Part shown: piece after piece, positions 29,465-51,710 of the stretch | Layout of the letters: every line of letters begins with the position of its first letter | How positions within the stretch are numbered: position 1 is the first letter of the stretch | Source of the DNA: Onthophagus taurus | Taxonomy: Eukaryota > Arthropoda > Insecta > Coleoptera > Scarabaeidae | Direction of reading: 5' to 3' | NCBI RefSeq assembly: GCF_036711975.1 | Contig: NW_027248939.1 | Coordinates: 186,001-250,000, forward strand | DNA: 64,000 nt | The notes under the pieces: generated by a model | Database searches by the model: none | Told to the model about the DNA's origin: nothing | The model's input: the letters and a program-made list of their open reading frames with translations, nothing else | Program-made: the position numbers and the translations under genes

Positions 29465-30160
29465 GTTATGATACATTCTGAGACGGAACTACCGGAATCC
29501 CTTCAGATTCCAGTACGCCACGTCGAAGCCAGTCTGGAACACAACCAGCACCACTTTTTCCAGCTGAATGGAACTCCTCTCACCCCGCATGGCTTATTTC
29601 TGTTTCTTTTTAATTTATAGCTCGCGTAAATTGTTCTAAAAAAATTATGGAGACAAAACTTTGAAAATCCAATAACAGGATTCGACAAACACAATTATTT
29701 ACCATATTTTGGTTAAAACCGCGTTAAAATCCAACCATCCGTTTTCGACTATACCGCATCTTACTAAACCGCGATTTTCGGCGAAACTATATGGGATATC
29801 GAAAAAATTAAATATGCACATCATTAAGAACACATCAGGGTACCACCTGTTCAAATTTGAACTTTTCGTCGGATAGTTTTTGAGAAAAAAAATCGCAAAG
29901 TGGACAAAGTTGCCGGCACCATCAAAAATAGGTTACTTTTTTCATTTAACTCGCGATTTTAGGAAAACCGCTGAGTCGAAAATTTTCAAATTCACATATG
30001 TTACGTAGAAATGTTCAGTGAATACAACAAAGCTAACCGCATTTTTTTTCATCGGACGGTTCTCGATATATCGATCTTTAAACTGACGAGAATTGACTTT
30101 TCAAGTTATATCGAGATTTACTTAACTGGAGTTTATCTAGCGACTGAAGAACCGGCCCTA
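29465..30160. repeat. right arm of the roughly 690-bp inverted repeat
   Basis: Reverse complement of 26481-27176 with scattered changes, ending GACTGAAGAACCGG. Confidence 0.8.
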
Positions 30161-35112: not shown

Positions 35113-35307
35113 ATGATGTCTATCAATACGTTTCAATTCTCGAAATACGAAATAACAGTGGCCTATAGCAATAAAAATACAATACACAACTTACTATCCA
35201 ACCATCGCCTAAATAATAATACAAAAATTCTCCAGGAAAGTGGTGTTTATAAAATTGTATGTGAAGAATGTAATAGTATATATATCGGACAAACTGGACG
35301 CAGACTG
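35113..35307 (+). pseudogene. Penelope-like element, RT end and first half of the GIY-YIG endonuclease
   Basis: The frame ends with SGVYKIVCEECNSIYIGQTGRR, the GIY-YIG nuclease motif in the form seen at the end of Penelope-like RT proteins. It is preceded by the NTIHNLLSNHRLNN linker. The Maverick element interrupts it at 35308. The frame continues at 51717 once one copy of the 6-bp duplication is discounted. Confidence 0.85.
35302..35307. repeat. target-site duplication AGACTG (left) of the Maverick element
   Basis: AGACTG is repeated at 51711-51716 immediately outside the right terminal inverted repeat. Six base pairs is the standard length for Mavericks/Polintons. Confidence 0.95.
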
Positions 35308-35905
35308 AGTAGTATAGATTCGCCGATTCAAGAACCTCCTCCTCGAACCTGCGTTCTAGGAGGAGGTTCTTGAATCGGCAAATTTTTTGGGGGTCAGAGG
35401 AGGTTCGATGAGGAGAGGAGGTTCTTGAATCGGCGATTCTTTTGAGGGTCGGAGGAGATTCGATGAAGAGAGGAGGAGGTCAATTAACTTGAGAAGGTCA
35501 TGTTATTTTGACGAAATTATTAAAAATTTATCTTTATTAAAAATTTATCTTTATTTAGGTTATGTTATTAAAAATTTATATGTAACCTGTTTACCTAGAT
35601 GAAAACAATTACTATGTTTATCCTTCGACGCTTCTCAATGAACTGTTAATGTTTTCGATATATCTCTTAATTTATTATTATACACAAAGGTATACGGTTT
35701 TGAGACATGTAGGTATACAAACAAGTGAGTCATAACTTACCTGCGAGATATTTTTTATTTTATTATGTAAAGGTGTACAGGTATTTAAGAATATGCGAGG
35801 AGGTTCTTGAATCGGCAAATTTTTTGGGAGGACAGGTTTGAGGAGGACAACTAACTTGTTAGTAGTAGATGAGTCATGATCCACCTGCGAGATATTTTTT
35901 AAGAG
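35308..35905. repeat. left terminal inverted repeat of the Maverick element
   Basis: It matches the reverse complement of about 51084-51710 from its first base with several small indels. It contains the phrase GAGGAGGTTCTTGAATCGGC at about 35358, 35419 and 35798, plus an inverted copy at the tip. Similarity fades after about 35905. Confidence 0.9.
35322..35379. repeat. hairpin at the Maverick tip: 22-bp perfect stem, 14-nt loop
   Basis: 35322-35343 (GCCGATTC...CTCCTCCT) is the exact reverse complement of 35358-35379. The same structure occurs at the other end of the element (about 51639-51696). Confidence 0.9.
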
Positions 35906-36035
35906 CTTCTTAATAAATTTGTCATGCGTTTTGTCTGACGTCTCACGATATAATGACATGTTAGAACATGTATAATAGATATATTCGGTAATGATGTAAA
36001 ATATTACTCCCCCCACCAGCAACCTTATGTATTGC

Positions 36036-36043
36036 TATAAATA
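36036..36043 (+). promoter_or_regulatory. TATA box of the first rightward Maverick unit
   Basis: TATAAATA lies about 30 bases before a likely start region (36066-36090) and upstream of the predicted 5' exon that ends at 36171. Confidence 0.6.
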
Positions 36044-36170
36044 CAAACGTTGGTCGAAGTTGTACCGCAGAGTGTTGTGCTTCAGAGTAAGGTTTTTGTG
36101 TATTTAGTACATATTAAAAATATCGTGTAGATTTTTGGTGCATTTAGTACAGAGGATTTTTAACGTAACG

Positions 36171-37135
36171 AGTAAGTAATTCAAATGTAATACAAGTAGA
36201 TAATGTACTAATGTAAACAATAATATTGATGTTTAGTGGCAACCAGACCGAACCCCAAATGTCCAACTAAGAGAGCTGCTGTAAATTCATTTGAAAAGGG
36301 TGAAAATAAAAAACCTGCCCGAAACATCAAAATGGAGGGTAATTGTAATGAGACAACTGCAACAAATGTGTCGCTAGGAAGTGATAATCAAAGAAAAAAG
36401 GATGTGGTATTCGATGGAATTAATTTGTTGCCTTCCGACTTAGCGGAGTACGTATTTCCTAGCAATCAACAACATTATGTAGAAAATTGTGGAAAGTTAC
36501 CTTTCACAAGTAACGTAGTATTAAATGAAGCAGTGAAAAATAATCTCCAAAAAGGTAATCAAGCGCCATTATTCTCCGAGAGTACATATTATTTAAATAA
36601 AAGTCGAACGAAATGGATATCGGTTGGCATGTCTGCCAATCTACATTTTGATCCGGTTATAAGATTAATGGGAAAAGGACAATGCATAACTTTTACCGAA
36701 GACGAATGGAAAAATGTGATTAATAGCAGACAATTGATTATGAATAGTTTTGTTGGTGATTTATCGACACCACCACATTTCGTTGTAAGCGGCGTGACCT
36801 GCAGCAGCCAATGGATAGAAAATGTACGAAAAGTGTTGAAAATGGAAAGGGGGTCAGAAATATTTTACCTGGCTTACGACTCGTTACACGAATTGTGGAA
36901 ACTTAGCGATTTAGTTTCGAGTAGGGTAGAAGTATTAAAGTGTATGGAATATAAAAATTATTACGATAGCGTGATCGATGTGGTATCAACAATGCAAGGT
37001 GATATAAAATCGAATATATTGGTTGCTTCAAACGGTGCACCAAGTGAACATTTGTGCGTAACTAAAGAACTGCTCGTATACGGTATGGATAAGATATTAC
37101 TGGATTTAGATTTGCACGCATTAATGAAGATGTGA
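36171..37135 (+). CDS. Maverick protein of unknown function (299 residues), start codon made by splicing
   Basis: The frame is open from 36237 to 37135 but has no ATG at its beginning. A 65-nt intron (36172-36236, GTAAGT...TTTAG) would join A36171 to TG at 36237-36238. That produces an ATG with A at -3 and G at +4, in frame with the whole protein. The next in-frame Met is about 30 codons later (near 36332). The product starts with a basic Lys/Arg-rich region, then a mostly globular part with ISVGMSANLHFDPVIRLMGK and TFTEDEWKNVI. I do not recognise its domain. By position, next to the TIR, it could be an early regulatory or replication factor. The intron model is inference. Confidence 0.75.
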
Positions 37136-37145
37136 AGTGAATAAA

Positions 37146-37370
37146 ATGGAAAAAAAAGTGACGTTTTGCGAATCGAAAAATAGAGTGTACCGAATGCACA
37201 CTTGGACGTTTGCTTACAGACAATCAAGGATAAGTGACTGGGAAGAAAAGATGTTGGACGGAATTAGATTTAAGACTAGGATAAGAAACGTAAATAAGTT
37301 ATTAGAAAAATATTTAGATGTAGATTATAGATTAAACATATATCAAGAACGTTTTAGCATTGTAGAGTAA
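37146..37370 (+). CDS. small Maverick protein (74 residues), unknown function
   Basis: The ATG at 37146 lies 8 bases after the stop of the preceding gene. The product starts MEKKVTFCESKNRVYRMHTW and continues with many Arg, Tyr and Trp residues (FAYRQSRISDWEEK). From memory, similar small proteins with an FCE...VY.MHTW..AYR pattern occur in other arthropod Mavericks, but I cannot verify this here. A polyadenylation signal follows at 37511. Confidence 0.6.
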   Translation: MEKKVTFCESKNRVYRMHTWTFAYRQSRISDWEEKMLDGIRFKTRIRNVNKLLEKYLDVDYRLNIYQERFSIVE

Positions 37371-37510
37371 TCGAAATGTTTTTAACTGAGTAACGATTAA
37401 TTTTTAGGATAGGTATTAGTAGATTTAAGTGTAGCTGAATAATAATAATAATATTAATAGATTTAAGTATAAATTAAGAGCAAAACTGTTTTTGTAAAAT
37501 ATTTAAAAGG

Positions 37511-37516
37511 AATAAA
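37511..37516 (+). terminator. polyadenylation signal AATAAA of the first rightward unit
   Basis: AATAAA lies 140 bases after the stop of the 74-residue gene and before the capsid block. Confidence 0.5.
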
Positions 37517-37592
37517 AGCTTAAAGCACAACAGCAGAGCTTCATTTCTAGTTTTTAACTGTGAAGAAAAGGAAGAAGGAGTGAAATTATAAA

Positions 37593-38510
37593 ATGAATTT
37601 GTTAGAACCTAATCGTAACAGTTATCGTTTGACAGGCAAACGAATTGGTCGAGGATTTTTTAACAAGTTGATAGATAAACTTCCGATAGAACTTCATTTG
37701 CCAGGATATAATTTTTGTGGACCGGGTACCAAGTTGGAAAAGAGATTATCGAGAGGAGATCGAGGCGTGAATCCATTAGACGAAGCGTGTAAGAAACACG
37801 ATATAGCATATACGGTCAGTTCAAATTTAAAATTTAGACACGACGCAGACAGAGCATTATATAAAGCAGCGAAAGAACGAATACGAAATAAAGAGTCTAC
37901 TCTTGGAGAAAAAGTGGCATCGTCCGCAGTTGCCGCCTTAATGAAAGCAAAAGTAGCGGTCGGTATGGGCGTAGGTAGAAAAAGAAATCGTACGGGTCGA
38001 CGACCTTTAAAAAAAGTCCGAACGCGTGTAAAGCGTGGTGGAGCTATATCTTTTGTAGATGCACTTCGATTCGCTCGCAACGCAATATCGAGATCAGGTG
38101 CTAAGAATTTGTTGACAAACGTTAAAGCGGCGTACGGAGCTTTGAAAAAGATAAGAAAAAGAATTTCCGAACCTAGAGGTCGAGTTATTCGAATTCCGAA
38201 AACGGGAGGATTTTTACCTTTAATTCCCCTGTTCGCAGCTTTAGGTGCCCTAGGTAGTATCGGCGGTGGTGCTGCCGCTATTGCAAGAACTATAAACAAC
38301 GCGAAAACAGCTAGAGAGCAATTAGATGAAGAACGAAGACATAACAAGGCTATGGAAGCAAAGGCCGTAGGTAGCGGATTTTATATAAAACCATATAAGA
38401 AAGGTTGCGGTTTGTTTATTGAAGGAAAGGGGAATAATGTTGGCGGCACAGGTTACTTCAATAAGCCCTATAAGAAAGGTTGCGGTATAACCACTAGTTC
38501 AAAAAACTAG
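37593..38510 (+). CDS. phospholipase A2 domain virion protein with pX-like tail (305 residues)
   Basis: The N-terminal part is a parvovirus-VP1u-type phospholipase A2: the calcium loop YNFCGPGTKL (residues 39-48) and the catalytic HDIAY (His69, Asp70, Tyr73), with a later Asp in RHDADR. Such domains help particles cross endosomal membranes. A basic Arg/Lys-rich middle follows. Then come a hydrophobic Gly/Ala stretch (FLPLIPLFAALGALGSIGGG, near 208-235) and two copies of a KPYKKGCG motif (near 264 and 291). This tail resembles the adenoviral core or minor-capsid precursor type seen in adintoviruses. The stop at 38508-38510 directly follows a slippery heptamer (see 38501). It opens the capsid block. 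Confidence 0.85.
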   Translation: MNLLEPNRNSYRLTGKRIGRGFFNKLIDKLPIELHLPGYNFCGPGTKLEKRLSRGDRGVNPLDEACKKHDIAYTVSSNLKFRHDADRALYKAAKERIRNKESTLGEKVASSAVAALMKAKVAVGMGVGRKRNRTGRRPLKKVRTRVKRGGAISFVDALRFARNAISRSGAKNLLTNVKAAYGALKKIRKRISEPRGRVIRIPKTGGFLPLIPLFAALGALGSIGGGAAAIARTINNAKTAREQLDEERRHNKAMEAKAVGSGFYIKPYKKGCGLFIEGKGNNVGGTGYFNKPYKKGCGITTSSKN

Positions 38511-38887
38511 TTCGAATACCTCGTCGTGCGTTAACTAACGTCGAGTTGGAAAAGTTTGCGAAAGTACTAAAAATTCCACATTTTCGGGGTATATTTATGA
38601 GAGACAATCTCCCGAGTAAGATTAAAAAGAAGGAAAGAGGTATTGTTAACTTGGATAACTTGAAAGGACGAGGGACTCATTGGGTCGCCTATAAGAAAGA
38701 CGACAAGGACATATACTATTTCGACAGTTACGGTGATTTAAGACCGCCATTAGAAATTGAACAATATTTGCTGTCAGACGGTAGGGGTGGTCAAGTAAAG
38801 TATAATTACTGTCGATATCAAAGAGAAATAGATCAAAATTGCGGACAGTTGTGTCTGAAGTTTCTAAGTAATAAAAGAACCTATTAG
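38498..38887 (+). CDS. adenain-like cysteine protease (capsid maturation protease)
   Basis: The open frame runs from 38498 to the TAG at 38887. Conserved protease sequence is already present by the LEKFAKVLKIPHFRGIFMRD segment, upstream of the first ATG (38597), so the protein is unlikely to start there. Catalytic residues of the adenovirus-type (C5/Ulp1-like) fold are visible: His in GTHWVAY, Asp in YYFDSYG, and Cys in NCGQLCLKFL, with Gln four residues before. It would cleave capsid precursors, and the preceding phospholipase/pX-like protein is a natural substrate. Expression is best explained by -1 frameshifting from that gene, giving a fused precursor. A TTG start at 38546 is an alternative. 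Confidence 0.88.
   Translation, partial: FKKLVRIPRRALTNVELEKFAKVLKIPHFRGIFMRDNLPSKIKKKERGIVNLDNLKGRGTHWVAYKKDDKDIYYFDSYGDLRPPLEIEQYLLSDGRGGQVKYNYCRYQREIDQNCGQLCLKFLSNKRTY
38501..38507 (+). promoter_or_regulatory. candidate -1 ribosomal frameshift site (A AAA AAC)
   Basis: The heptamer lies in the X XXY YYZ register of the phospholipase frame, immediately before its TAG stop. A -1 shift enters the open frame of the protease, which is open from 38498 and lacks an ATG until 38597. Downstream, CTCG and CGAG at about 38520-38545 can pair, with a second short block inside, but this is a weak hairpin. A AAA AAC is one of the most efficient known slippery sequences. The function here is inference. 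Confidence 0.7.
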
Positions 38888-38917
38888 AGTCTAGAGACGT
38901 TTAGACGTTCAGAAGTA

Positions 38918-39649
38918 ATGGAGAAAGAAGCAATACACACGACATATACATTTACGTTGACTGGAAAGTCATCTGAATTGACTTGTAATTTTAATCCTCC
39001 GATCTATTTGAACGAATTTGGTAGTTACGAGTTGGCTCTTTTGAATTTCGAAACGTTTAATAGTTTAGCAAACGTTAATAAAAACAACAACGTAATCCAA
39101 TACGAAGATAAGACAGGACATTTTAAAAACAATATAATAGTACCTGTTGGAACGTACGATATTGATGATATTGCCGAGTTCGTGAATGAACAGCTAGACA
39201 AAAGACACGCTAAAAGTGTCGTAATAAGGATTAAGGGGAATAATAACACACAACATTCTTTAATAAAAAGTACCCGTCGAATTAATTTTGCATGCGATAA
39301 TTCTATAGGGCCGTTACTTGGCTTCAAGCCTCAAATATTACCTAGAGATACGGAAGTGGAATCCGATTTCGTAGTAAACATAAATAAAACGAACGCCTTA
39401 CAAATTTATTGTAATTTAGTGACGGGATCGTATAATAACGGAGTTCCCGTGCACGTTTTATATCATTTTTTCCCAAACGTTCCGGCAGGTTTTAAAATAA
39501 TCGAATCACCACAACTACCTATTTATTTACCGGTTTTAACGAACGTGATTAGTAGCTTAACAGTACGTATACTTGATCAGGACGGAAACTTGGTAGACTT
39601 CAGAGAAGAAGAAATAACAGTGAGAGTTCACCTGAGATCGATAAATTGA
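38918..39649 (+). CDS. penton-like minor capsid protein (243 residues)
   Basis: The ATG at 38918 is 30 bases after the protease stop. The pattern YLNEFGSYELALLNFETFNS near residues 30-50 and NIIVPVGTYDIDDIAEFVNE near 70-90 matches the single-jelly-roll minor capsid (penton) protein of Polintons. The protein is rich in predicted beta strands. It would form the fivefold vertices. It lies just upstream of the major capsid gene, as is usual. Confidence 0.82.
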   Translation: MEKEAIHTTYTFTLTGKSSELTCNFNPPIYLNEFGSYELALLNFETFNSLANVNKNNNVIQYEDKTGHFKNNIIVPVGTYDIDDIAEFVNEQLDKRHAKSVVIRIKGNNNTQHSLIKSTRRINFACDNSIGPLLGFKPQILPRDTEVESDFVVNINKTNALQIYCNLVTGSYNNGVPVHVLYHFFPNVPAGFKIIESPQLPIYLPVLTNVISSLTVRILDQDGNLVDFREEEITVRVHLRSIN

Positions 39650-39672
39650 ATTATTTAAATTTGACTAACGTT

Positions 39673-39864
39673 ATGACAGTGTTATATCAAAACAAAAGAA
39701 TGCGGTGGTCAAGAAGAGACAGAGCGAGAAAATTGTTTAATGGAGAAAACTATAAAGCGCGCGTCATCAGTCAACGTAGCGGCAGTAGAAGACGATCCAT
39801 TCATCGATTATCACCAGTCAATCGAAGGTATTTAGTTCAGTTAGGATACGAAGTGTTAAAGTAA
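39673..39864 (+). CDS. small basic protein (63 residues) before the major capsid gene
   Basis: The ATG at 39673 opens a very Arg-rich protein (MRWSRRDRARKLFNGENY, then RSGSRRRSIHRLS). Its TAA overlaps the ATG of the major capsid gene by one base (TAATG, 39862-39866). The charge suggests DNA binding inside the particle, comparable to adenoviral core peptides, but no family was recognised. The overlap suggests termination-reinitiation on one mRNA. Confidence 0.55.
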   Translation: MTVLYQNKRMRWSRRDRARKLFNGENYKARVISQRSGSRRRSIHRLSPVNRRYLVQLGYEVLK

Positions 39865-41123
39865 TGGACATTTTAAAAGTAACGGATAAGATAAAAACAG
39901 ATCACTCTATCGTAAGTTATGAATTCCATTCGCATCAACCGTTTGGATCGACCACGTTCGATAACAATGACGAAATTAGAATTTCAATTCCGGAAATAGA
40001 TAATTATACTTTACCGAGCGAGAGTTATCTATACGTCGAGGGTAGCGTTCGTAAGTTAGCCGCGGACGGAAGTATAACAAAAGATGCCAGCGCAACGGGG
40101 CAATTGGTTAACAATCCCGTTGCATTTATGTTTAGCGATATTCGATATCTTATTAACGGAGTACATGTTGATGGTGTGCGGAACGTCGGTATAAGCTCAT
40201 GCATGAAGGGTTATTTCTCATCTACACAGAACGAGGTGGTGAAATTAGCGAACGCCGGTTGGCACATAAAACCTTGGAAAGATGATATAGCGGGTGTTTC
40301 AAAGGCTTTAGATAAAAATGGAAATTTCGGTCTTAGCGTTCCGCTAAAATCGTTGCTAGGATTCGCAGAAGATTTCAGAAAGATCATGATGAACGTTCGA
40401 CAGGAACTTGTGCTAATTCGCGGACACGATGATACGGACGTCATCTTTCAACCAGCAGCCGCTCCGAACGACGAAAAATTGAAATTGATCATTAATAAAA
40501 TTATATGGAGAGTTCCTCACGTGGCGGTGGGATTACGCGAACAGTTGGCATTAACAAAACTATCAGAAAGAAACGTAGACATTCACGTTCCTTTTCGATC
40601 GTGGGAAATACACGAGTACCCTCAATTACCTCAAACTACGAAGCAATCTTGGGCCGTCAAAACTGCTCCACAATTGGAAACGCCTAGATTTATAATCATC
40701 GGATTTCAAACAAATCGAAAGGGTATATTTAAAGGAAACATGGCATTATTTGATAATATAAACTTAACGAACGTAACCGTTTTCTTGAATGGAGAACGTT
40801 TTCCGTACGATAATTTGAATGTGGATTTTGATAACAATCACTATGCGATTTTGTATGATATGTATTCAAGATTTCAGCAAGCATACTACTATCAAGAAAG
40901 CGAACCTTTGTTTTCACCGGAAGAATTTAAAACTTACGCGCCGTTAATTGGAATCGATTGCACGTATCAACAGGAAGCAATACATAAAAGCGGAGTAGAA
41001 ATAAAAATCGAGTATTCAACGAAAAATCCAATTCCGGAAGGTACGACAGCTTACGCATTAATTCTGCATGACAGAGCATTTGTGTATTCGCCTCTTACGA
41101 AAATGGTTAAGCAATTAATATAG
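39864..41123 (+). CDS. major capsid protein, hexon-like double jelly roll (419 residues)
   Basis: The start ATG overlaps the preceding stop. The N-terminal part (SYEFHSHQPFGSTTFDNNDE) and DNYTLPSESYLYVEGSV near residues 45-62 match Polinton major capsid proteins. The C-terminal part FSPEEFKTYAPLIGIDCTYQ is likewise typical. The family forms trimeric capsomers with two jelly rolls per subunit. The length is slightly short for the family but plausible. Position after the penton and protease genes supports the call. Confidence 0.88.
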   Translation: MDILKVTDKIKTDHSIVSYEFHSHQPFGSTTFDNNDEIRISIPEIDNYTLPSESYLYVEGSVRKLAADGSITKDASATGQLVNNPVAFMFSDIRYLINGVHVDGVRNVGISSCMKGYFSSTQNEVVKLANAGWHIKPWKDDIAGVSKALDKNGNFGLSVPLKSLLGFAEDFRKIMMNVRQELVLIRGHDDTDVIFQPAAAPNDEKLKLIINKIIWRVPHVAVGLREQLALTKLSERNVDIHVPFRSWEIHEYPQLPQTTKQSWAVKTAPQLETPRFIIIGFQTNRKGIFKGNMALFDNINLTNVTVFLNGERFPYDNLNVDFDNNHYAILYDMYSRFQQAYYYQESEPLFSPEEFKTYAPLIGIDCTYQQEAIHKSGVEIKIEYSTKNPIPEGTTAYALILHDRAFVYSPLTKMVKQLI

Positions 41124-41196
41124 TGGTACTGTTGAAGCAACGTCATTTAGTGTATCTCTAAACATCGAAGGAAACGTTTGCATATAGTGGTATATT

Positions 41197-41676
41197 ATGG
41201 ATATTATGGTTTTTCAAAGGGATTTTATTATTTTGGACATTCAAGGTTTCACGGTAAACGATGAAGAATTTATCCCAAAGGAACTGGCTTCTTACGACAG
41301 TAATCATTGTATAAGTCATTACGTGTTTCAACCTAGTCGAAGCTTTTCTTCACTATCTACCAAATTTCGCAATACGGCGAATTGGTTAATGAGTCATCAT
41401 CATTGTATTGATTGGAACGACGGGTTTGTTCCTGCGTCTCGTTTCGATGAGATCGTTTATTATTTGTGTCGTTCGACAAAAGTAGCGTACGTAAAAGGAC
41501 GTGAGAAAGCTACATTTTTAAGAAGAATTTTAACAATACCGGTAAAAGAATTGCCGGAAAATGAATGCAAATTGGAGGTTGGTGCGCCGATGTGTCCCTA
41601 TCATAAAAAGAGACCAAGTATGTGCTCCTTATCGAATGTTTTTTATTTATTTTCATACGTATTCAGACATCTATAA
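41197..41676 (+). CDS. Maverick-associated protein, 159 residues, possible nuclease-like fold
   Basis: The ATG at 41197 opens FIILDIQGFTVNDEEFIPKE, then HHHCIDWNDGFVPASRFDEI and YVKGREKATFLRRIL. A C-terminal CPYHKKRPSMCSLSNVF carries a Cys/His pattern. From memory this is a family found in many arthropod genomes next to Mavericks. An RNase H-like or exonuclease-like fold has seemed plausible because of the early DxQG-type strand and conserved His/Asp/Lys residues, but catalytic residues are not proven. It sits at the end of the capsid block. Confidence 0.6.
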   Translation: MDIMVFQRDFIILDIQGFTVNDEEFIPKELASYDSNHCISHYVFQPSRSFSSLSTKFRNTANWLMSHHHCIDWNDGFVPASRFDEIVYYLCRSTKVAYVKGREKATFLRRILTIPVKELPENECKLEVGAPMCPYHKKRPSMCSLSNVFYLFSYVFRHL

Positions 41677-41732
41677 CTATATGTAAACGAATTGAGAAAG
41701 GCAGACGGGTAGTAGCGGTAGAGCAGTTCAAG

Positions 41733-42065
41733 ATGGAACGTCTTTGGCGGTTAGTTACCAGATTGGGACTTTCAACTTTTATAATTAATAAAGTGTGGGA
41801 TATTATGGAAAGATACGAATCTGATTTATCTTTTGCGAATATTAAAAACTACGAATTATGTTATTTACCAATCGATTATTATATCAATAAAGTAAAGCCA
41901 TTAGATTTGGCGGCGGTTTGGTTTAAATTACCGTTGAAGTATAGAAACGATGAGCGATTACAAAGCAAGCTGCCCTGTTTTGAACATTATAATTTGCCTC
42001 ATTGGGAAACGCATATTGATGGTCCACCATCGGCAAGAAAGGATTGTTCTTTATGTATGGTTTAG
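41733..42065 (+). CDS. small Maverick protein, 110 residues, Cys/His-containing C-terminus
   Basis: The ATG at 41733 (MERLWRLVTRLGLSTF) opens a helical protein ending with CFEHYNLPHWETH and CSLCMV. I do not recognise the family. Its frame is open upstream to 41622, overlapping the 159-residue gene in the -1 frame, but no slippery heptamer lies in the overlap. A weak intron (from GTATGT at 41618) could alternatively join the two. Confidence 0.5.
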   Translation: MERLWRLVTRLGLSTFIINKVWDIMERYESDLSFANIKNYELCYLPIDYYINKVKPLDLAAVWFKLPLKYRNDERLQSKLPCFEHYNLPHWETHIDGPPSARKDCSLCMV

Positions 42066-42104
42066 TATATAAACATTGTCAGTTATAGATTGTAAATTAA
42101 TAAT

Positions 42105-42110
42105 AATAAA
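42105..42110 (+). terminator. polyadenylation signal AATAAA of the capsid block
   Basis: AATAAA lies 40 bases after the stop of the last capsid-block gene, within a run of AT-rich sequence. Confidence 0.5.
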
Positions 42111-42239
42111 AGATTGTAAAAAGTGTAAAAAGTTGTTTTAATTTAAAAGAAAAAATAGTTAATGTAAATGAATACATGGTATGTATACATTGGGTTGGGT
42201 TGGTATGACTTGGGTTGTACATTGAAAAAGTATTAAATT

Positions 42240-42460
42240 GGAAGAAAAAAAGGAAGAAAGAAAGGGGAAAAAAAGGAAGAAAAAAGGAAGAAAAAAAAAA
42301 AAAAAAAAAAAAAAAAAAGAAAAGAAAAAGGGAAAAGGATTGTTTATTGAAGCTCCTCCTATGCTCCTCCCATGCTCCTCCTCAGGCTCCTCCCAAAGTG
42401 GAGATGGAAGAGTGGGGATGGGAGTGGGGGAAATCTAAAATTCCCCCCCCCCCCCCCCCG
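42240..42460. repeat. homopurine tract of about 100 nt and a 17-C run
   Basis: 42240-42338 contains only A and G on the plus strand, including an uninterrupted A run across 42300. The stretch 42443-42459 is all C. Short tandem CTCCTCC phrases lie between. The frames predicted here are artefacts of composition. Confidence 0.85.
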
Positions 42461-42569
42461 GTTGCCAGGAAACTAGAGCCAGAAAAAAAGTACCCCCACT
42501 CTAACTCCGCCCATTCCCCACTCCTCCCCCTTGTCACGCCCCACCCCACGCCCCCCTTCATTACTCTAC

Positions 42570-42602
42570 TATAAGAAGGCACCTCCCAGCCTTTGAAAGT
42601 CA
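42570..42602 (+). promoter_or_regulatory. TATA box and initiator of the leader-spliced Maverick unit
   Basis: TATAAG at 42570 is followed 32 bases later by TCACTT (A at 42602), close to the arthropod initiator consensus. The first predicted leader exon begins here. Confidence 0.6.
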
Positions 42603-43330
42603 CTTAAGTGTTTGTGTTCTTCAGTTTTTTTGGTAAGTACAACCTTCTTTATTATCATGTTTATATAACGTTCATTTTCTCTCCATCACTACAGCTCTTT
42701 CTACAACTTTCTCTTTTTTGGTGAGTAAAACTATATTTGTTTTGCATGTTTATATAATATTTAAAATTGTTTTTTTCCACTCCTAGACATCCTTGTTCAT
42801 TCAGCTTTCTCTTTTTTTTGCTGTGTTTTATTTGGTAAGTAACCTTTTCTACTTCCATGTTTATATAATATATTCTTGCTTTATTTCATCATGACAGCTC
42901 GTTCTACTTTGTTTTTGTGAGTACAACTTGTTTATTTGTTTGTTATGTTAAATTGATATTTTTTTCCCAATTCCTACAGGAGCTTACTGCTGATCAGTTC
43001 GATTAGACCGATCAGTTTTTAACATCGTAATTTCAGCAACTTTGCAACTTTTTTCTGGTAAGTATAGTCTCCTTTCTTGACATATATTGTTTTTAATCTT
43101 GTGTTTTTCATTCCTATAGCTCCTTCTATTTTTTCAAGTTAACTTTTATTGGTAAGCATAACTTTATTTTTTCGAACGTTTTATCATTCATATCCTATCA
43201 TTCAGCACTTTGTTGACAAGCACCCTCTGCAGTTAGATTTTAACGTGCAACTGTATTTTTCATCAAGCGATGTAAGTATACATGTTTTTTTTATTAAAAT
43301 AAAATTAATTAATTTTCTTTTCTTATCAAG
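42602..43330 (+). other. multi-intron 5' leader: seven predicted introns of 54-66 nt
   Basis: Predicted introns are 42633-42694, 42721-42786, 42835-42897, 42917-42979, 43058-43119, 43152-43205 and 43272-43330. Each has GT(A/G)AG(T/C) at its start and a pyrimidine-rich AG at its end. Leader exons are short (19-78 nt) and T-rich. The last intron ends exactly at the ATG at 43331. All seven ATG triplets between 42602 and 43330 lie in introns or across a 5' splice site. The first three introns share CATGTTTATATAA, suggesting tandem duplication of an exon-intron unit of about 110 bp. Confidence 0.75.
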
Positions 43331-44308
43331 ATGTCTCAAGACGGTTTTAGTCAAATTGATTTAACTGCTCCGGGTTTCGCCAGCCAGGAATCCTTTCTGT
43401 TAAACAGTTTTGACATAAACCTGTTGAACATGTCGACTGTTGAGAAGGCTCTGGATCCAAACGTGCAGCCTAATGAGCAGCCGATGGATCCAAACGTTGA
43501 ATCTAATGTGCAGCAAGCTACGGCGCTTCCAAACATCGCAGGTTCCTCGAAAGTCGACGATAAGAATGTGAAACACCTTTCACTTTCACTTCGTCGAAAG
43601 TCGGGGAACCGTGAACACCGGAAGAAGGGTGCAGGTGTGTGGTTACCGCCAGATAAGTATAGAGAGCTTCGACGGGAGACCCGTGCTCGTTCGCGAAGTA
43701 CCAAACACAAGCGTGTGTCAGTTGAACCTGCGACTCTGTCAAAGGTTGAAGTGACACACTCGGAAGTGGCTAGCGGCGATGAGTCCAACGACTCTCTTTC
43801 TTTAATGGCGGTATCCCAACACTGCACCGAAAACCGGACATACCTTAAAGCTATTAATGCAGCTTTTGTTTCTAAGGCTTCTTCTTCTAAAGCTTCGTCG
43901 ATTCCCACTCCCCCTACTAACATAAACATTCCTACCATAGAAGTTCCCTCATTAAGCCCGAAAGTACAAATCTTAAGGGTGGACACAATTCCCGCTACTT
44001 CAGTCATTTCCGATGTACCTGCCAGCCTTTTTTCAAATGCAATGTGTGCAGCAGTAGAAACAACCAAAGAGGAGATTTTGACCGAAATTAATATTTTGTA
44101 TCAAAATTTTTATAAAGACCTTCATGCAAAGGTACTTCAATTGCAGACCTCTTTGAGAGAACTTGCACAGTTTAGGGAAGGGCTGGCGTCGAGTTCTAAC
44201 CACTCTTTAACAACGTCACTCGACATCACCGTTGCAACATTAACCGTTGAAATGAAAAAAGCAGAATTCATTTTGTCTTCTTTACATACTAATAACTTCC
44301 CTTCCTAG
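43331..44308 (+). CDS. Maverick protein of unknown function, 325 residues, disordered with helical C-terminus
   Basis: The ATG at 43331 directly follows a predicted 3' splice site. The first half is low-complexity and polar, with DPNVQPNEQPMDPNVES repeats and a basic patch (RRETRARSRSTKHKRVS) near residue 120. VWLPPDKYRELRRE precedes the basic patch. The C-terminal 100 residues look helical and coiled-coil-like (ILTEINILYQNFYKDLHAKV). I do not recognise a family. It could be a structural or core protein. The stop TAG at 44306-44308 is itself preceded by a pyrimidine tract (CTTCCCTTCCTAG), a good 3' splice site for the next small gene. Confidence 0.65.
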   Translation: MSQDGFSQIDLTAPGFASQESFLLNSFDINLLNMSTVEKALDPNVQPNEQPMDPNVESNVQQATALPNIAGSSKVDDKNVKHLSLSLRRKSGNREHRKKGAGVWLPPDKYRELRRETRARSRSTKHKRVSVEPATLSKVEVTHSEVASGDESNDSLSLMAVSQHCTENRTYLKAINAAFVSKASSSKASSIPTPPTNINIPTIEVPSLSPKVQILRVDTIPATSVISDVPASLFSNAMCAAVETTKEEILTEINILYQNFYKDLHAKVLQLQTSLRELAQFREGLASSSNHSLTTSLDITVATLTVEMKKAEFILSSLHTNNFPS

Positions 44309-44317
44309 CTAAAAAAG

Positions 44318-44629
44318 ATGTCCGGTAGCAACAACTTCGGGAGGGTGCTCACGTTGGAGCGAAGAGTTGCGTCTTTGGAGGTCAAAGTAGATACCCTGTT
44401 TCAGCTGGTAGGCTATATCTATAATCTTTTTTGCACGTTTTTAATTTCATAATCTTCTTAGGTAAACAGTATTGTCTCAGAGTCGGCAGTGGTGAGAGGG
44501 CAGGTGCATGTTCAAAACATGCACATACACCATTGTTCGACTGGGATAGAACCTCCGACACCGACACCTGCAGCGCCTCCGCCCCCGTATGAAGTGCGGG
44601 ATGAACAGGAAGAGGAGGAGGAGTGGTAA
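44318..44629 (+). CDS. small spliced Maverick protein with coiled coil and PPxY motif (85 residues)
   Basis: I read join(44318..44407, 44462..44629). The 54-nt intron is GTAGGC...TTCTTAG, and both exons join in phase 0 and stay open to TAA at 44627. The first exon encodes a heptad-like helix (LTLERRVASLEVKVDTLFQL). The second ends in a proline-rich tail with PPPPYE and a run of Glu. PPxY motifs bind WW domains of NEDD4-type ubiquitin ligases; they occur in viral late domains and in the adenoviral protein VI (PPSY). The predicted alternative acceptor at 44308 would give this gene its own mRNA from the shared leader. Confidence 0.65.
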
Positions 44630-44647
44630 CCATTTTTCCTCCTCTTC

Positions 44648-44703
44648 CTTAGGTTAGGTTAGGTTAGGTTATGTTAGGTTAAATGGTTAAGGTATTATAC
44701 TTA

Positions 44704-44735
<32 letters not shown>

Positions 44736-44740
44736 CTTCT
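44648..44740. repeat. (TTAGG)n stretch followed by (TTA)n microsatellite
   Basis: Four near-perfect TTAGG units start at about 44648; this is the common arthropod telomere motif. A run of TTA/ATT triplets follows. It separates the PPxY gene from the ATPase promoter. Confidence 0.8.
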
Positions 44741-44754
44741 TCTTAAATATATGT

Positions 44755-44788
44755 ATATATAGTTTCTTTTGCTATATTTTCATTCAGT
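44755..44788 (+). promoter_or_regulatory. TATA box and initiator of the ATPase gene
   Basis: TATATAG at 44755 and the arthropod initiator TCAGT at 44784-44788 (A at 44786) are 31 bases apart, the canonical spacing. The ATPase ATG follows 31 bases later. Confidence 0.65.
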
Positions 44789-44816
44789 CTTATCCAATTC
44801 ATTTAGTACGAGAATC

Positions 44817-45521
44817 ATGATCGACGAGAAATTAAAATGTTTACCGCAACTTCTAACACTGCCTATAGTAAATTTTAGTAATGGTTCGGTCGAAGAACAC
44901 TTTACAAGACACAGCAATTTATTTGGTGGAAAATGTAAGCGAGGTTTAATTGTAGGACCCTCAGGTGTCGGAAAAACAAATGCTATGTTATCGCTTTTAG
45001 TTGCACGTAATGGGTTGCGCTTCCTAAACTTGTACTTATGCTCTAATTCGTTATACCAAAATAAGTACGATTTTTTAAGACGTTTAATTGAACCTATAAA
45101 AGATTGCGGTTACTATGAATTTTCTAATATAGACGAGTTCATTCGACCGGAAGATGCGAAAGAATATTCGGTAGTCGTATTTGACGATGTTTCCTGTACA
45201 GGTCAAAATGTCATTAAGGAATTTTTTTCGTATGGTCGACATAAAAACATTGATTGTTTTCTAATTTGTCAAAGTTATAGTGCAATTCCAAAACAATTAG
45301 TTCGCGATAATTGTAACTTTTTGGTGTTATTTAAACAAGACTTAACAAATTTAAAACACGTATTTGAAGATCACATAATGAGCGATATGGAGTTTCATCG
45401 GCTAAAGGAAATTAGCGATGCTTGTTGGGAGAATAGACACGGCATCCTAGTTATTGATTTAGATTGTAGTGTATCTAAGGGACGTTACCGTAAGGGTTTT
45501 GATAAATTCATTGAAGTTTAA
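44817..45521 (+). CDS. packaging ATPase (FtsK/HerA/A32-like)
   Basis: The ATG at 44817 opens a protein of 234 residues. Walker A is GPSGVGKTNAM, and Walker B is VVVFDDVSC. Later, CFLICQSYSAIPKQLVRDNC corresponds to the sensor/arginine region of the A32-like packaging ATPases. It would pump DNA into the capsid. Size and motif spacing fit Polinton ATPases. Confidence 0.88.
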   Translation: MIDEKLKCLPQLLTLPIVNFSNGSVEEHFTRHSNLFGGKCKRGLIVGPSGVGKTNAMLSLLVARNGLRFLNLYLCSNSLYQNKYDFLRRLIEPIKDCGYYEFSNIDEFIRPEDAKEYSVVVFDDVSCTGQNVIKEFFSYGRHKNIDCFLICQSYSAIPKQLVRDNCNFLVLFKQDLTNLKHVFEDHIMSDMEFHRLKEISDACWENRHGILVIDLDCSVSKGRYRKGFDKFIEV

Positions 45522-45572
45522 AACTAACGACTTCAGCTGTACAGTTCGTAGTAACTTCACATACATCATACA

Positions 45573-45824
45573 ATGAACAAGACGATAGCTGCAGAACTTA
45601 TCGCGGCACGAGAAGTCGTGAGAGACAAAATTCGTTCTTTAAAAGAAGACTTAGAGGAGTCAAGGATTCGGTCGGAAACCGCATATGCACCCATCGCAAG
45701 GCCCTTACAGGATATTGTCGCAAAACTTGACACTGCGCCTTTACTATCCATTCCAAAACGAAGTTTATCTCCAAAAGAAGAAAAATTGATATCTAAGAGA
45801 TGGAACTACGGATACAACGGATAA
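45573..45824 (+). CDS. small coiled-coil protein (83 residues), upstream part of a frame-split gene
   Basis: The ATG at 45573 opens a helical, charged N-terminus (ELIAAREVVRDKIRSLKEDL), then AYAPIARPLQDIV and KRSLSPKEEKLI. A stop follows at 45822-45824. The arrangement recalls two-part Maverick proteins with a coiled coil and a small C-terminal domain. The likely second part lies in the +1 frame (45790-46071). Confidence 0.6.
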   Translation: MNKTIAAELIAAREVVRDKIRSLKEDLEESRIRSETAYAPIARPLQDIVAKLDTAPLLSIPKRSLSPKEEKLISKRWNYGYNG

Positions 45825-46071
45825 TTATTACATTATTCAAAATTTAGGTTACGTAAGTAAATATATAAACTTTTTATATATTGGTGAAATAGTGAAATAC
45901 CGATTTGAAGGAGACGTTGAAATGATTATTAACGGGAGTATCTTCGATCCAAATAAAAAGTTAAATGTTCTCTTCTTTGGAGATAAAATAGTTTGCAAAC
46001 CCACAACGAAGACCACTTTACTCAAGAAACCATTTATGGTAGAACTGCTCATTGAAATATCCAGAAAATGA
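45790..46071 (+). CDS. overlapping +1-frame ORF, probable C-terminal domain of the preceding gene
   Basis: The frame is open from 45790 to the TGA at 46069-46071, overlapping the 83-residue ORF by 35 bases. It has no ATG until 45922. YIGEIVKYRFEGDVEMIING resembles the short C-terminal beta domain that follows the coiled coil in related Maverick proteins, from memory. Its TGA overlaps the integrase ATG (ATGA, 46068-46071). It may reflect a one-base mutation, a +1 frameshift, or an independent 50-residue product from 45922. Confidence 0.45.
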   Translation, partial: YLRDGTTDTTDNYYIIQNLGYVSKYINFLYIGEIVKYRFEGDVEMIINGSIFDPNKKLNVLFFGDKIVCKPTTKTTLLKKPFMVELLIEISRK

Positions 46072-47003
46072 GCGATATTAAAAGGTCCGTCGTAAACGAG
46101 TTGCACGCGTCCGCGAGGAAAAAGTATAAACGCAGACGTGTTATTATAAAAGGTTTAACGGACTTATTTCAAGCTGATTTAGTGGAGATGATACCTTATT
46201 CAAAAGCAAATGGTAATTTTAAATATATTCTAACAGTTATTAATGCTTTCTCAAAGTATGGATGGGCTGTACCACTAAAAAACAAAACTGGCAAAGAAGT
46301 TACGCGAGCTATGGAAACAATTCTATCGGAAAAGCGGAAAAACATACCGAAGAATCTGCAAACGGATAACGGAAAAGAATTTTACAATGAGGATTTTAAA
46401 AAGCTCATGTCACGATATCACATCAATCACTACAGTTCATTTTCCAATTTAAAGAGTTCTATTGTTGAACGGTTTAATAGAACAATAAAAGAAAAAATGT
46501 GGAAAGAATTTAGTATGCAAGGTAACTATCGTTGGTTGGAATTGCTTCCCAAATTAATTCTGGATTATAACAACCAAGTTCACAGGACGATAGGAATGAA
46601 ACCTAGCGAGGTAAATAACAGAAACGCATCGACACTGTTAAAAACTGTATATAATTACATAAAAATTGTCGATCCTTATACCAAAAAATTTAATGTCGGT
46701 GATCACGTCAGAGTGAGCAAGCATCGACACGCCTTCACCAAAAACTATACTCCCAATTGGTCTAACGAAGTGTTTACAATACATTCTGTTCGTAATACTT
46801 TCCCAACAACATATCTGCTCAAAGATGCATCCAATGAAAAAATTATGGGTGGTTTTTATCGAGAGGAATTACAAAAAGTTAAATATCCTGACGTCTACTT
46901 GGTGGAAAAAGTGCTACGGCGAAAAGGAAATCAAGTGTTTGTGAAATGGTTAGGATTAGGTCCGTCTCATAATTCTTGGATCTCAAAAACTAACGTTCTT
47001 TAA
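46068..47003 (+). CDS. Maverick integrase with C-terminal chromodomain
   Basis: The start ATG overlaps the preceding TGA. The retroviral-type core shows catalytic Asp in FQADLVEM, Asp in LQTDNGKEF and Glu in SSIVERFNRTIKEKMW, the D,D-35-E arrangement. After the core and the HVRVSKHRHAFTKNY SH3-like region comes a chromodomain (VYLVEKVLRRKGNQVFVKWL), about residues 270-311. Integrase inserts the element, and the chromodomain could direct it to marked chromatin. No HHCC zinc domain is seen. The 311-residue length and open frame are normal for Polintons. Confidence 0.93.
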   Translation: MSDIKRSVVNELHASARKKYKRRRVIIKGLTDLFQADLVEMIPYSKANGNFKYILTVINAFSKYGWAVPLKNKTGKEVTRAMETILSEKRKNIPKNLQTDNGKEFYNEDFKKLMSRYHINHYSSFSNLKSSIVERFNRTIKEKMWKEFSMQGNYRWLELLPKLILDYNNQVHRTIGMKPSEVNNRNASTLLKTVYNYIKIVDPYTKKFNVGDHVRVSKHRHAFTKNYTPNWSNEVFTIHSVRNTFPTTYLLKDASNEKIMGGFYREELQKVKYPDVYLVEKVLRRKGNQVFVKWLGLGPSHNSWISKTNVL

Positions 47004-47037
47004 AACGTATAAAGACCTATTTAAAAGTTTACAAGAC

Positions 47038-47043
47038 TTTATT
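47038..47043 (-). terminator. polyadenylation signal of the polymerase gene
   Basis: AATAAA on the minus strand, 63 bases after the polymerase stop, in the gap between the convergent integrase and polymerase genes. Confidence 0.55.
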
Positions 47044-47105
47044 AACAATCGAACATTACAAATACATTATTATTATTATTCTTTACAATTTTTTTTAAAT
47101 TAAAT

Positions 47106-50100
47106 TCATTTATTCGCATTCAATCTTTTTATCAACCAATGACCCCACGCCAAAGTATTACATCCGTTCGGTAATATGTATCGTTTATCATCGCACGATG
47201 AAAGAGCAATTTTATTCTTTAATTCGGTATACATAGTATGAAATTCTGACTTAAAAATGTACATTTTTTTATGAACCGATCCGCCACATTCAACCACACG
47301 TTTATAATCGGTCACGCTTAAATGTTTATCTATAACATATTTCTTTACTCCTTTAGCCTTCTTTACATTATCATTCAACAAGGTGATGCAGTACGCCTTA
47401 GCTCCTGTTCCAACAAATGACGTTATGCACCTGTTTGGATATTCATCTTTCATTCTTCCCAACACAGATCGACCGCGAGGTATATTGTGTATATTCTCTA
47501 ACGGATAATTGGACGTGTCAAAAAATTCAATATTTTCTTTTATATCCTCATATACATTGGGAGTAGTAATTTCTAGGATTAGGGAATCAGTATCGGTGTA
47601 TAAAAGTGTTATGTTATTTCCATATTTAAGTTTTAAGTAATCATAGAAGAAGCTGTACATTACGGTTTTCGAAAGCTCTAATATACTGAAACCCACATAC
47701 AGCGGTTTGCAATAACGAACTTCCGCGACGTTCAATTGAACGGCTATCAAATTATCGCAAAATATTTTCGAAGATTTAAAATTTGGTTTAGCTATTAGGG
47801 CTTCCACGCCCGGTTTCTTATGACGACATTCCCAGTGGGTAACTAGTCTTATATCCACTCGCTTTTCCACATTTTCCATTGTCTTACCGTATACGATGTT
47901 ATTCATTGCTTTGTAATGATTTTTTTCAAATTCATTCTTAGCTTTCGCACGTTTATCGGAATTGAAATCGATGTAGCTCCGCATCCAGTTGGATTGTTTA
48001 AATTCTAATACTCTGTAAATCTTCGTTAGTTTCAATCCGAACTTGATACACTGCTTTAGATTCACGTAATGAATGATGTATTTTGTTTTATTTTCCAAAT
48101 TTGCTATTAACTTTGCATTTTTTGAACCTGGGGGTACAATCCGTTCTGGACAAAATGGCAAATCGTTGTGTTCATCATGTATTGCTTCCGGATACTCTAA
48201 ATCTACCTCGAACACGTAACCCTTTTCGGAATCGTCTTCCGTATTGTAAATATCTAACTTTTGAATCTCTTCATCTGATAGCCATCGAAATCCCCCCGTC
48301 GGTAATTTTCGTCTCATTGCGTGTCCATACAAATTCGTAGCGTCGAGATACAAAATATAAGATGGGTCTTTGGTTTCATCAAATTCCATCATTAATTTAT
48401 TGTTAGCCTTCGCACTGCGTTTAGTGCACATACTTAATCCACCGCGAATACCATTTTTAAAGAAGTGTAACATGTCTATGTCCGTTAATAATTCTAATTT
48501 TACCCCTGTCATTCGTAATAATGCATCCCAACCGAAGCCCGGCGCTGTGAAGTAATGACATGGATCTAAAGAGTAATACTTCATCGAGATGGTTCGGAAA
48601 TTCTCAAATACGTCCGCCAAAAGTAAAACGTCAGACGTTAAATAAATGTCGCTATATTCGCCTAAAGTGCGACAGTTAAATAAGTTCCACACCGTTTGTG
48701 CACGACAATAATTTTCTTCGGTTATACTATCGTCGCATAAAGTATTGTAAAAACTACTTCGATCTGGCAGAGCGGTAAGATTCAGCTTTTCGAATGAATC
48801 CACAAAGGAATACGGAAAAACTCCTTTCTGACGTATAAGTCGAAACTGTTCTTCGTTCCTAAAATATTTTCTGATTTGAACGCATTGGTTGTCTTCCAAA
48901 AATGAACCCAACTTCTCTAGCGATAAAGCCATAAACCTAAATGAATCCACAAATCTCAATTTCATATGAACCCGCCTTAGCTTTCCCTTGCTGTCAATGT
49001 TTTCTCCTACGATAATTTTTTTCGAAAATGATATATACTTTTCTTTATTCTGTGCTATAACGTCCACGTCTTCTTCTTTTAATGCCATATCTTTCACAAA
49101 CATATGACAATCGTAGTTCGAAAGATTGTGAAAGAATATCGGTATGAACTTTGGTAATTGATAATTGATGTTACATACAGCATGTGCGGGTCCTCTATAC
49201 AACCCAGTTAGGTGATCATGATCGCACACTTTATTACCTTCTTTTATTTTGTGCGAACAAATGTGACAGATATCCTGCATCTCATGTATTAATCTATCAA
49301 TAGGTGGTAATGGGAGCATTTCTTTTGGTTGGCTTAAATAATTTTTGTATATATTCAGAACGTCATGTTCCAACTTGCTCATGAAAATTTGAGCAGCATT
49401 ACATCCGCGATATATTTCAAACTTCGACAATGATTCGTCATATGAACATTTTATATAATATGCAAATGCATAAGGTTCGTGTTTGAAACATTTGACGGAG
49501 TATGAATTATCATCGTTAAGTTCTGTTGCTTCCGCATCGGCGATCGGTTTCTGTAATGCTTCAAAATCTGCATACACCACGAACGGTATTTTTAATTGTC
49601 GTTCAAAATTTTCGAACTGTAGTATATTTTCCTTTTCTTCATTTCCATATTTATTTATTTTTAAATTTGTTGTTGGTAAAATTGCCCTTACCTTGCTGCA
49701 ATCGTCACTTTGATGACGGATAAGTTTATTTTCTGACGTAAAGAATACCAAGCATCCGTCGCAAATATACTTTTCATGACCATTCTGCGATGCTTGCGAT
49801 GATAGTAATCGAGACAGATTTTTTATCCAACAATAGTGACTATTCCCGGAATCATTTGTAACCAATAATAAATTTATATGTCTTTCTTCTTTTTGTCGAC
49901 ATATATACATTGTAATTATGTCATAATTCATAACACCGTCTTTAAAATACTCATTTATTCCATATACATTAATAGATAGTTTGTTCTGCTTTTCAAATAC
50001 AGGTATATCTCGTAATTTAACTGGAAAAACAATATTTGAATAGTCTAAGCCGCAGTCTAGGTAATTCGGATACGAAGATGTCCTCTGTGGTAAACCGTTC

Positions 50101-50898
50101 GGTTCATGTAGTGCGGATGTTACAGCCCATGCAAAACATGCATCATCCGCGTTTTGTATATTTATCACAGCACGCTTTGCTTTTATTTGTGATGGTAGAT
50201 CGATGTAATTAGATGCTCTGATAGGATTATATTTGTTTAAATTTAACTCCATATAGAGAATTTGCATTAAAGTCCATCCTAAATAAAATATTGAAACATT
50301 TATTTTATAATATATAGGTATATTATGTCACATTACGCTTACCTGAATCTCGTTCCTGGAATTCTGACATTTTTGATGAAATTTCATCAATAAATTCCTT
50401 ATATATTTTATACAGATCCGACGCTAATGATACTACCTTATTTTTCGTATTGAATGATTTTATTTCACAGTCTTCCTTTGATTGTAAAAAATACAAACCA
50501 AAACATTCCATATTTAATTTTACATTTCGGTGAATATCGATTGCGCTTTGTATTAGATTTAGTATTTTTTCTCGAATTCTATGAGAAAATTCATCCAAAT
50601 CCACAAAAAAACCTTCTTCACTTATTCGATAACTGACAATTTTGTCACCGAATGCTCCAGCTATTCTCTCCACTCCGTCATCGATTATAACAAAAGCGTT
50701 ACGCTTGTGTGCGTTGCTTCGTAAATGTGCAGAGTAACATTGTCTATTTACATAATCATCGCAAGCCTCACATTTTACTGCTTTTGGAATTTGCGGTGCG
50801 TCAAGCTTGATTCTCTTGCCAATACAAGATAATCGTTGATGTCTTTTTAAATTGTCAACTCGAGTAAAACTTTTTCCACAATCCTCACACACGACCAT
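47106..50898 (-). CDS. protein-primed DNA polymerase B with N-terminal zinc finger, two exons
   Basis: I read complement(join(47106..50278, 50343..50898)), 1242 residues. The 64-nt intron (GTAAGC...TTTAG) joins the exons in phase 1 through a Gly-Trp context that fits the family. Exon 1 starts with a C2H2 finger (CEDCGKSFTRVDNLKRHQRL) and a second Cys/His pair. Exon 2 carries an N-terminal domain with ADDACFAWAVTSALH and HYCWIKNLSRLL, a zinc-knuckle-like CDGC...H..C, then the exonuclease motifs (YADFEAL; FHNLSNYDCH). The polymerase motifs follow: YLDATNLYGHAM (A), AMNNIVYGKTMEN (B) and LYTDTDSL (C). It replicates linear DNA from a terminal protein. The frame is intact. Confidence 0.92.
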
Positions 50899-50967
50899 TT
50901 TACAATTTAATGTTGTACACTTCTACTTGTTATGAAAGAACTACGTCAATACCACATTTCGCAGGCG

Positions 50968-50973
50968 TTTATA
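50968..50973 (-). promoter_or_regulatory. TATA box of the polymerase gene
   Basis: TATAAA on the minus strand, 70 bases before the ATG at 50898. Confidence 0.5.
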
Positions 50974-51083
50974 AACCCTCACCGCTCCTGAAACTTATTG
51001 GGGAGGAGGAGGATGCATCGAGTGCGTTTGTATACATGTATATTTATAACTCCGTATACCTCTGCATAATAAATTAAAAAAAT

Positions 51084-51710
51084 ATCTCGCAGGTAGATCA
51101 TGACTCACTTACTAGTATTAAGTTAATTGACCTCCTCCTCGAACGTATCCCCCCAAAAAATTTGCCGATTCAAGAACCTCCTCGCATATTTTAAAGCTCC
51201 GTATACCTTTACACAATAAATTTTAAAAAATATCCCGCAGGTAGATCATGACTCACTTATTTGTATACCTACATGTCCCAAAACCGTATACCTTTGTGTA
51301 CAATAAGTTAAGAGATATATCGAAAACATTACCAGTTCATTGAGAAGCGTCGAAGGATAAACATAGTAATTGTTTTCATCTAGGTAAACAGGTTACATAT
51401 AAAGATAAATTTTTAATAACATAACCTAAATAAAGATACATTTTTAATAAAGATACATTTTTAATAAAGATAAATTTTTAATAAAGATAAATTTTTAATA
51501 ATTTCGTCAAAATAACATGACCTTCTCAAGTTAATTGACCTCCTCCTCTCTTCATCGAATCTCCTCCGACCCTCAAAAGAATCTCCGATTCAAGAACCTC
51601 CTCTCCTCATCGAACCTCCTCTGACCCCCAAAAAATTTGCCGATTCAAGAACCTCCTCCTAGAACGCAGGTTCGAGGAGGAGGTTCTTGAATCGGCGAAT
51701 CTATACTACT
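51084..51710. repeat. right terminal inverted repeat of the Maverick element
   Basis: Reverse complement of 35308-35905 with small indels, including an extra (aagataaatttttaataa)-type duplication near 51430-51500. It ends CTATACTACT, then AGACTG. Confidence 0.9.

Follow-up and report, generated by a model that had tools for sequence, protein, structure and literature searches.

A slippery heptamer between a PLA2/pX-like gene and an adenain-like protease frame suggests -1 frameshifting in Maverick elements of Onthophagus taurus

The window, a stretch of 64,000 nucleotides from the beetle Onthophagus taurus (contig NW_027248939.1, positions 186,001 to 250,000), contains a Maverick/Polinton element in which an open reading frame (ORF) with a phospholipase A2 (PLA2) domain, here called pX-like or pX, is followed by the frame of an adenain-like cysteine protease. 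An original prediction had described a canonical -1 frameshift heptamer linking the two at 38498..38600, and this observation is correct. The heptamer A AAA AAC was found at 38501-38507 in the X XXY YYZ register of the pX-like frame with the TAG stop next to it, and coordinates and codons match to the base. At the junction the zero frame reads AGT TCA AAA AAC TAG and the protease frame TTC AAA AAA CTA GTT. The -1 frame is indeed that of the protease, which is open from 38498 and runs to 38887, and 38597 was again read as its first in-frame ATG. The two frames overlap by 13 nt, which makes two in-register heptamer positions available. The features around the junction are:

37593..38510, + strand: PLA2-domain (pX-like) ORF, ATG to TAG, zero frame (PF08398, E 1.2e-12)
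37689..37892, + strand: phospholipase A2-like domain, residues 36-103 of P0001 (Pfam)
38259..38276, + strand: candidate adenain-type cleavage site IGGGAA in pX, from the known consensus and the comparison of lineages
38370..38507, + strand: C-terminal tail of pX with two KPYKKGCG motifs, directly 5′ of the slip site (sequence; related motif in other lineages)
38498..38510, + strand: overlap of the two open frames, 13 nt (ORF list and junction comparison)
38498..38887, + strand: frame of the adenain-like cysteine protease, taken between two stops and lying -1 to pX, without ATG before 38597 (ORFs and fold comparison)
38501..38507, + strand: slippery heptamer A AAA AAC (register read in the sequence)
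38508..38510, + strand: zero-frame TAG stop, directly 3′ of the heptamer (sequence)
38528..38530, + strand: codon that corresponds to the N-terminus of the adenovirus 2 protease (residue 10 of the model aligns with residue 2 of the chain; structure alignment)
38597..38599, + strand: first in-frame ATG of the protease, within strand 28-33 of the model (sequence and fold model)

The name phospholipase/pX-like, which the upstream gene had been given, holds for its PLA2 part, whereas the pX part is weak: Adeno_PX matched the ORF with an E value of 0.09, under the Pfam cut-off. The protease, according to its model, is of the adenain-type (clan CE) fold. This fold is shared with the adenovirus protease (structures 1nln and 1avp), and the model aligns to residues 2-141 of the ~203 residues of the adenain chain, the last part of which, past residue 141, has no counterpart in the Maverick protease. 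The residues H60, D75, Q107 and C114, which we take to be the catalytic His, Asp/Glu, Gln and Cys, are invariant among 11 protease sequences and line up with adenain, although the match is weak (E 0.025 for the sequence and 0.17 for the stretch). In the fold model, the N-terminus as matched by structure lies about nine codons 3′ of the slip site, and a start at 38597 would therefore remove the first helix and strand. Conserved protease sequence had also been proposed to precede this ATG. This was borne out, since the nonsynonymous rate (Ka) in that segment is well below the synonymous rate (Ks) between lineages and the fold model needs the segment. The protease as a whole, judged by its substitutions, is under purifying selection.

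To compare the junction, we collected relatives, all of which come from one genome (291 Mb), that of the window's host. The window region is present in at least 40 near-identical copies, its own included, and there are further protease families; each protease search of the genome gave at least 150 matches, these totals being lower bounds. Families recognised in the match lists were treated as lineages (F1, to which the window belongs, F2, F3/F3b, F4a-d, F5, F6 and F7), and examples of each were fetched. The window protease shares 44-58% identity with the representatives of the other lineages. From 102 loci we removed 10 (L001-L008 and L028, which are duplicates, and L100, which contains L052) and added the window, giving 93 distinct copies. 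The arrangement was counted as full when A AAA AAC or T TTT TTA stood in register, the protease was open to the match and pX was open for at least 40 codons upstream. This full geometry was found in 75 of the 93 copies and across six lineages (F1 35/40, F2 12/14, F3 7/7, F3b 2/3, F4a 6/7, F4b 2/3, F4c 6/7, F4d 1/1, F5 2/6, F6 2/3 and F7 0/2). Heptamer, stop and -1 overlap are thus conserved within this genome, with two types of heptamer. A AAA AAC is used by five of the six lineages. The F3 overlap does not contain it in register and carries T TTT TTA, which leads into the same -1 frame from a shifted place, 4-7 codons nearer to the conserved tail motif of pX than the heptamers of F1, F4 and F5. 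In three F5 copies (L074-L076), A AAA AAC is preceded by a second in-register heptamer, G GGT TTA. The eleven representatives used in the junction alignment were picked as examples of the arrangement.

We asked how often a heptamer would arise by chance in such sequence. In the rest of the pX ORFs, canonical heptamers occupy 15 of 1526 codon positions in the six lineages and 25 of 2514 in the eleven representatives. At this rate, the chance of one falling on either of the two overlap positions of the window is about 0.02. For the lineages the chance in the overlap is 0.02 (F1), 0.04 (F2), 0.17 (F3), 0.05 (F4a), 0.33 (F5) and 0.13 (F6). The product of the six, 2.7e-7, would apply to independent lineages; these are related, and their chances are therefore not simply multiplied. 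The residue in front of AAA AAC is S, A, Q, S and R in F1, F2, F4, F5 and F6, respectively, and its codon ends in A every time. Synonymous choice alone would give each of these heptamers with a chance of 0.05-0.17 (representatives of the same five lineages), and between them synonymous sites have diverged to saturation or close to it. The A at the codon end behind differing residues, together with the exchange of the heptamer in F3, speaks for selection on the slip site. The heptamer could also be an accident of A-rich sequence in front of a protease that is not made. The element is AT-rich and the A AAA AAC lineages have a common ancestry, as such a relic would have it; the chances of 0.02-0.33 per lineage, the two heptamer types, the purifying selection on the protease and the many near-identical copies leave this explanation with next to no probability.

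The same protein would result from transcriptional slippage, in which a base gained or lost by the polymerase within the A6-A7 or T7 run would bring pX and protease into the same frame on a minority of the mRNAs. All ten representatives measured have the heptamer in a homopolymer run of six or seven, and longer A-runs occur (A8 in L071, also L060, and A17 in L079). However, six bases make a short run for a polymerase to slip on. Such slippage also needs no codon phase, whereas A AAA AAC and T TTT TTA both stand in X XXY YYZ phase with a last base other than G. We therefore regard it as unlikely. Splicing, by which an intron would take out the pX stop or join another leader to the protease, seems still less probable. 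Some lineages have an AG directly past the heptamer (CTAG in F1 and F4a), but by eye no acceptor was seen at a common position, and in F2 the first 30 nt or so contain no AG. Moreover, splicing would leave the conserved heptamer and the common -1 phase unexplained.

Lineage F7 (L052 and L099) differs in that neither copy has a canonical heptamer near the junction. In L052 the junction reads AAAACACAATGAAAAG, and the TGA stop of pX overlaps the ATG of the protease (ATGA). This ATG gives MKRAPLTDI..., at the very start of the conserved domain. L099 has the same residues as L052 on both sides of the stop-start overlap and a protease that is interrupted further on. The locus is:

C11:12462032-12463994 (L052:1-1963): F7 locus with the ATGA overlap of pX and protease

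We considered L052 as a degraded copy and rejected this, as its capsid frame is intact and its protease has an ATG start; the capsid frames of L052 and L099 are open over 426 aa. F7 is the only lineage that lacks a slip site, and even there pX and protease remain neighbours. Lineages without a start at the edge of the domain thus have a slip site, and the lineage without a slip site has such a start. L079 and L080 are examples of single divergent copies that fit neither side of this pattern. F7 also suggests that a separate start, whether from the internal ATG (38597), from a codon other than AUG or through reinitiation past the pX stop, exists as a route in one lineage. In most heptamer representatives, however, the core strand contains the first methionine; in F3 and F5 there are other methionines, specific to each lineage (residues 21 and 13), and the protease of representative L081 has none. 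Together with the constraint on the segment before the ATG, this makes a separate start very improbable for the heptamer lineages. The protease tree is mostly unresolved, with one of eight inner branches well supported, and hence gives no order of heptamer gain and loss, nor whether F7 is derived or ancestral.

From the sequence comparisons we consider it highly probable that -1 ribosomal frameshifting makes a pX-protease fusion as a minority product. Most ribosomes on the PLA2/pX-like gene would end at the TAG at 38508-38510 and yield pX. A minority would slip by -1 on A AAA AAC, where the tRNAs would re-pair from AAA-AAC to AAA-AAA and the TAG would be missed, and these ribosomes would continue through the adenain-like protease. 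Slippage may set a low dose of protease. With a stop next to it, A AAA AAC may by itself give a low slip rate, and such a rate could suit a protease.

Several results weigh against -1 frameshifting. No convincing stimulatory structure was found downstream of the heptamer in the window lineage (z +0.7, -0.5 and -0.7) or in F3, F3b, F4a-c and F6. F2 reached z -2.1 (70 nt) and -3.6 (100 nt) and F4d -2.0 (100 nt only), and a simple scan of the 11 representatives revealed no H-type pseudoknot. Rfam gave no match. Only F5 has a convincing structure, a strong hairpin 9 nt past the heptamer (z -5.4). In addition, the full geometry is missing in 18 of the 93 copies, and seven of these have no usable heptamer. 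Among the seven, L079 has an A17 run and frames that are out of register, L080 has no pX ahead of the protease, L084 is short of one A, L086 lacks 13 nt and L102 has a changed site; the remaining two are the F7 copies. In the other 11 the heptamer is still present; pX is broken upstream in L012, L046, L071, L073, L075, L092 and L095, the protease is broken downstream in L051, L090 and L091, and L085 has lost five bases including the stop. Finally, the relatives share one genome and ancestry and are hence no independent tests. Scans of viral contigs (protease and capsid), other genome contigs and phages confirmed no relatives outside this genome.

As a separate observation, the 5-nt loss in L085 (C2:29164788-29166859) lies directly past the heptamer and places pX and protease in one frame of 378 aa.

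Ribosomal frameshifting at this site could also bear on where the protease goes. The fused end of pX is a conserved tail in the lineages compared, including F3, whose pX ORF (L055, L056 and L077) has no PLA2 domain and yet keeps the tail and the frameshift arrangement. Adenain cleaves at the consensus [IL]xGG-[AT], and a site like IGGGAA is found at the matching place in F1, F2, F3, F4b-d and F6, not in F4a or F5. The conserved tail at the fused end and the candidate cleavage site would fit a delivery into particles, in which the pX part would bring the protease along as particles assemble and adenain-type cleavage would then release it. Adenain starts at its own AUG and uses a peptide from the end of pVI as a cofactor that acts in trans. 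The Maverick protease, by contrast, has no AUG and would be joined in cis to the pX-like tail; a role of this tail as a cofactor in cis is an idea rather than a result. One lineage carries T TTT TTA where others carry A AAA AAC, and ATGA can stand in for a slip site altogether, which would suggest that the link between the protease and the translation of pX is what has been preserved. It is conceivable, if on balance doubtful, that Mavericks independently reached the logic of gag-pro, in which a scarce fusion of a particle-associated PLA2/pX protein and its maturation protease sets dose and delivery together with the pX tail as in-cis cofactor or tether, and that the coupling to pX was kept and not any one sequence.

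In retroviruses, gag-pro is read by -1 frameshifting at A AAA AAC sites. This parallel, drawn in the original prediction, stands; coronaviruses, which it had named as well, use U UUA AAC. The Maverick junction resembles gag-pro in the type of heptamer, in a protease in the -1 frame 3′ of another protein and in a stop close after the site. It differs in being part of a double-stranded DNA (dsDNA) element with adenovirus-like genes, in its cysteine, adenain-like and not aspartic protease, in its PLA2/pX-like partner and in that a stimulator was not found in most lineages. The two would work alike, and relatedness to gag-pro is not implied.

The prediction had known of no description in Mavericks. 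This has to be qualified, as the available parts of Buck et al. 2024 (PMC11071296) mention slip sites predicted near the end of some adintovirus Pentons, with possible frameshift isoforms of Penton, and a similar relation for possible frameshift Hexon-Adenain ('Hexain') fusions. There a proposed -1 frameshift in the same broad virus group would in one case join a virion protein to adenain. The partner in that case is the major capsid protein, predicted with KnotInFrame, and those parts of the paper give no comparison of lineages; in the beetle Mavericks it is the PLA2/pX-like protein, with conservation in six lineages. For Mavericks of Spodoptera cells, the sections seen of PMC5803895 describe a transcribed ORF series of conserved order with a PLA2-domain ORF 'CAP' (258 aa) and a short PRO ORF (133 aa). 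CAP and PRO are listed there as separate ORFs, and 'frameshift' concerns errantiviruses. The portions consulted of PMC12567637, PMC11089739, PMC5803895 and PMC4028283 (the last for the protease) contain nothing on Maverick frameshifting. The joining of PLA2/pX to an adenain-type protease by frameshifting in Mavericks thus appears to be a new use of an old class of mechanism, with priority not firm as the subscription literature is mostly uncovered. If true, annotations that start these proteases at an ATG are wrong, and protease output is tied to the translation of a probable particle protein, in agreement with the view that the elements build virions. The gag-pro solution would then be seen in a dsDNA lineage whose protease is unrelated. 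The slip-site and ATGA lineages would form a natural experiment, and the many near-identical copies make the reading testable.

The element itself is a complete-looking Maverick/Polinton with long terminal inverted repeats (TIRs) and a 6-bp target-site duplication; it encodes a capsid protein of the double jelly-roll type as well as an ATPase of the A32 type and an integrase (rve). Its other features are:

35302..35307 and, second copy, 51711-51716: target-site duplication AGACTG (flanking sequence)
35308..51710: whole Maverick/Polinton, 16.4 kb, TIRs at both ends (inverted arms; ends AGTAGTATAG)
38918..39649, + strand: next ORF, a minor capsid protein candidate by position only (no family match at cut-off)
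39789..41123, + strand: double jelly-roll major capsid protein ORF, stop to stop (PF21738, E 7.5e-101)

The TIRs (35308-35555 and 51463-51710) are 100% complementary, and the ATG of the 38918..39649 ORF is 30 nt past the protease stop. The packaging ATPase (Pox_A32, PF04665) and the integrase (rve, PF00665) each scored above the Pfam cut-off. The presumed PolB ORF (47106-50327, 1073 aa) matched endonuclease VII in Pfam and PHROGs; neither database revealed a polymerase domain in it, and a search of PDB sequences returned zinc-finger chains only. Motifs in this ORF are, we assume, of the PolB type. On the minus strand (window 47106-50922), the presumed PolB frame overlaps the end of an upstream 199-aa zinc-finger ORF by 5 nt.

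Outside the Maverick, imperfect inverted repeats (26477-27093 and 29544-30159, 91-95%) flank about 2.4 kb, perhaps a separate mobile element. A Gypsy/errantivirus-like element occupies 52447-59877; its direct end repeats of 272 nt are 100% identical, and of its ORFs, one is of the RT-RNaseH-integrase type and another matches the Baculo_F envelope family.
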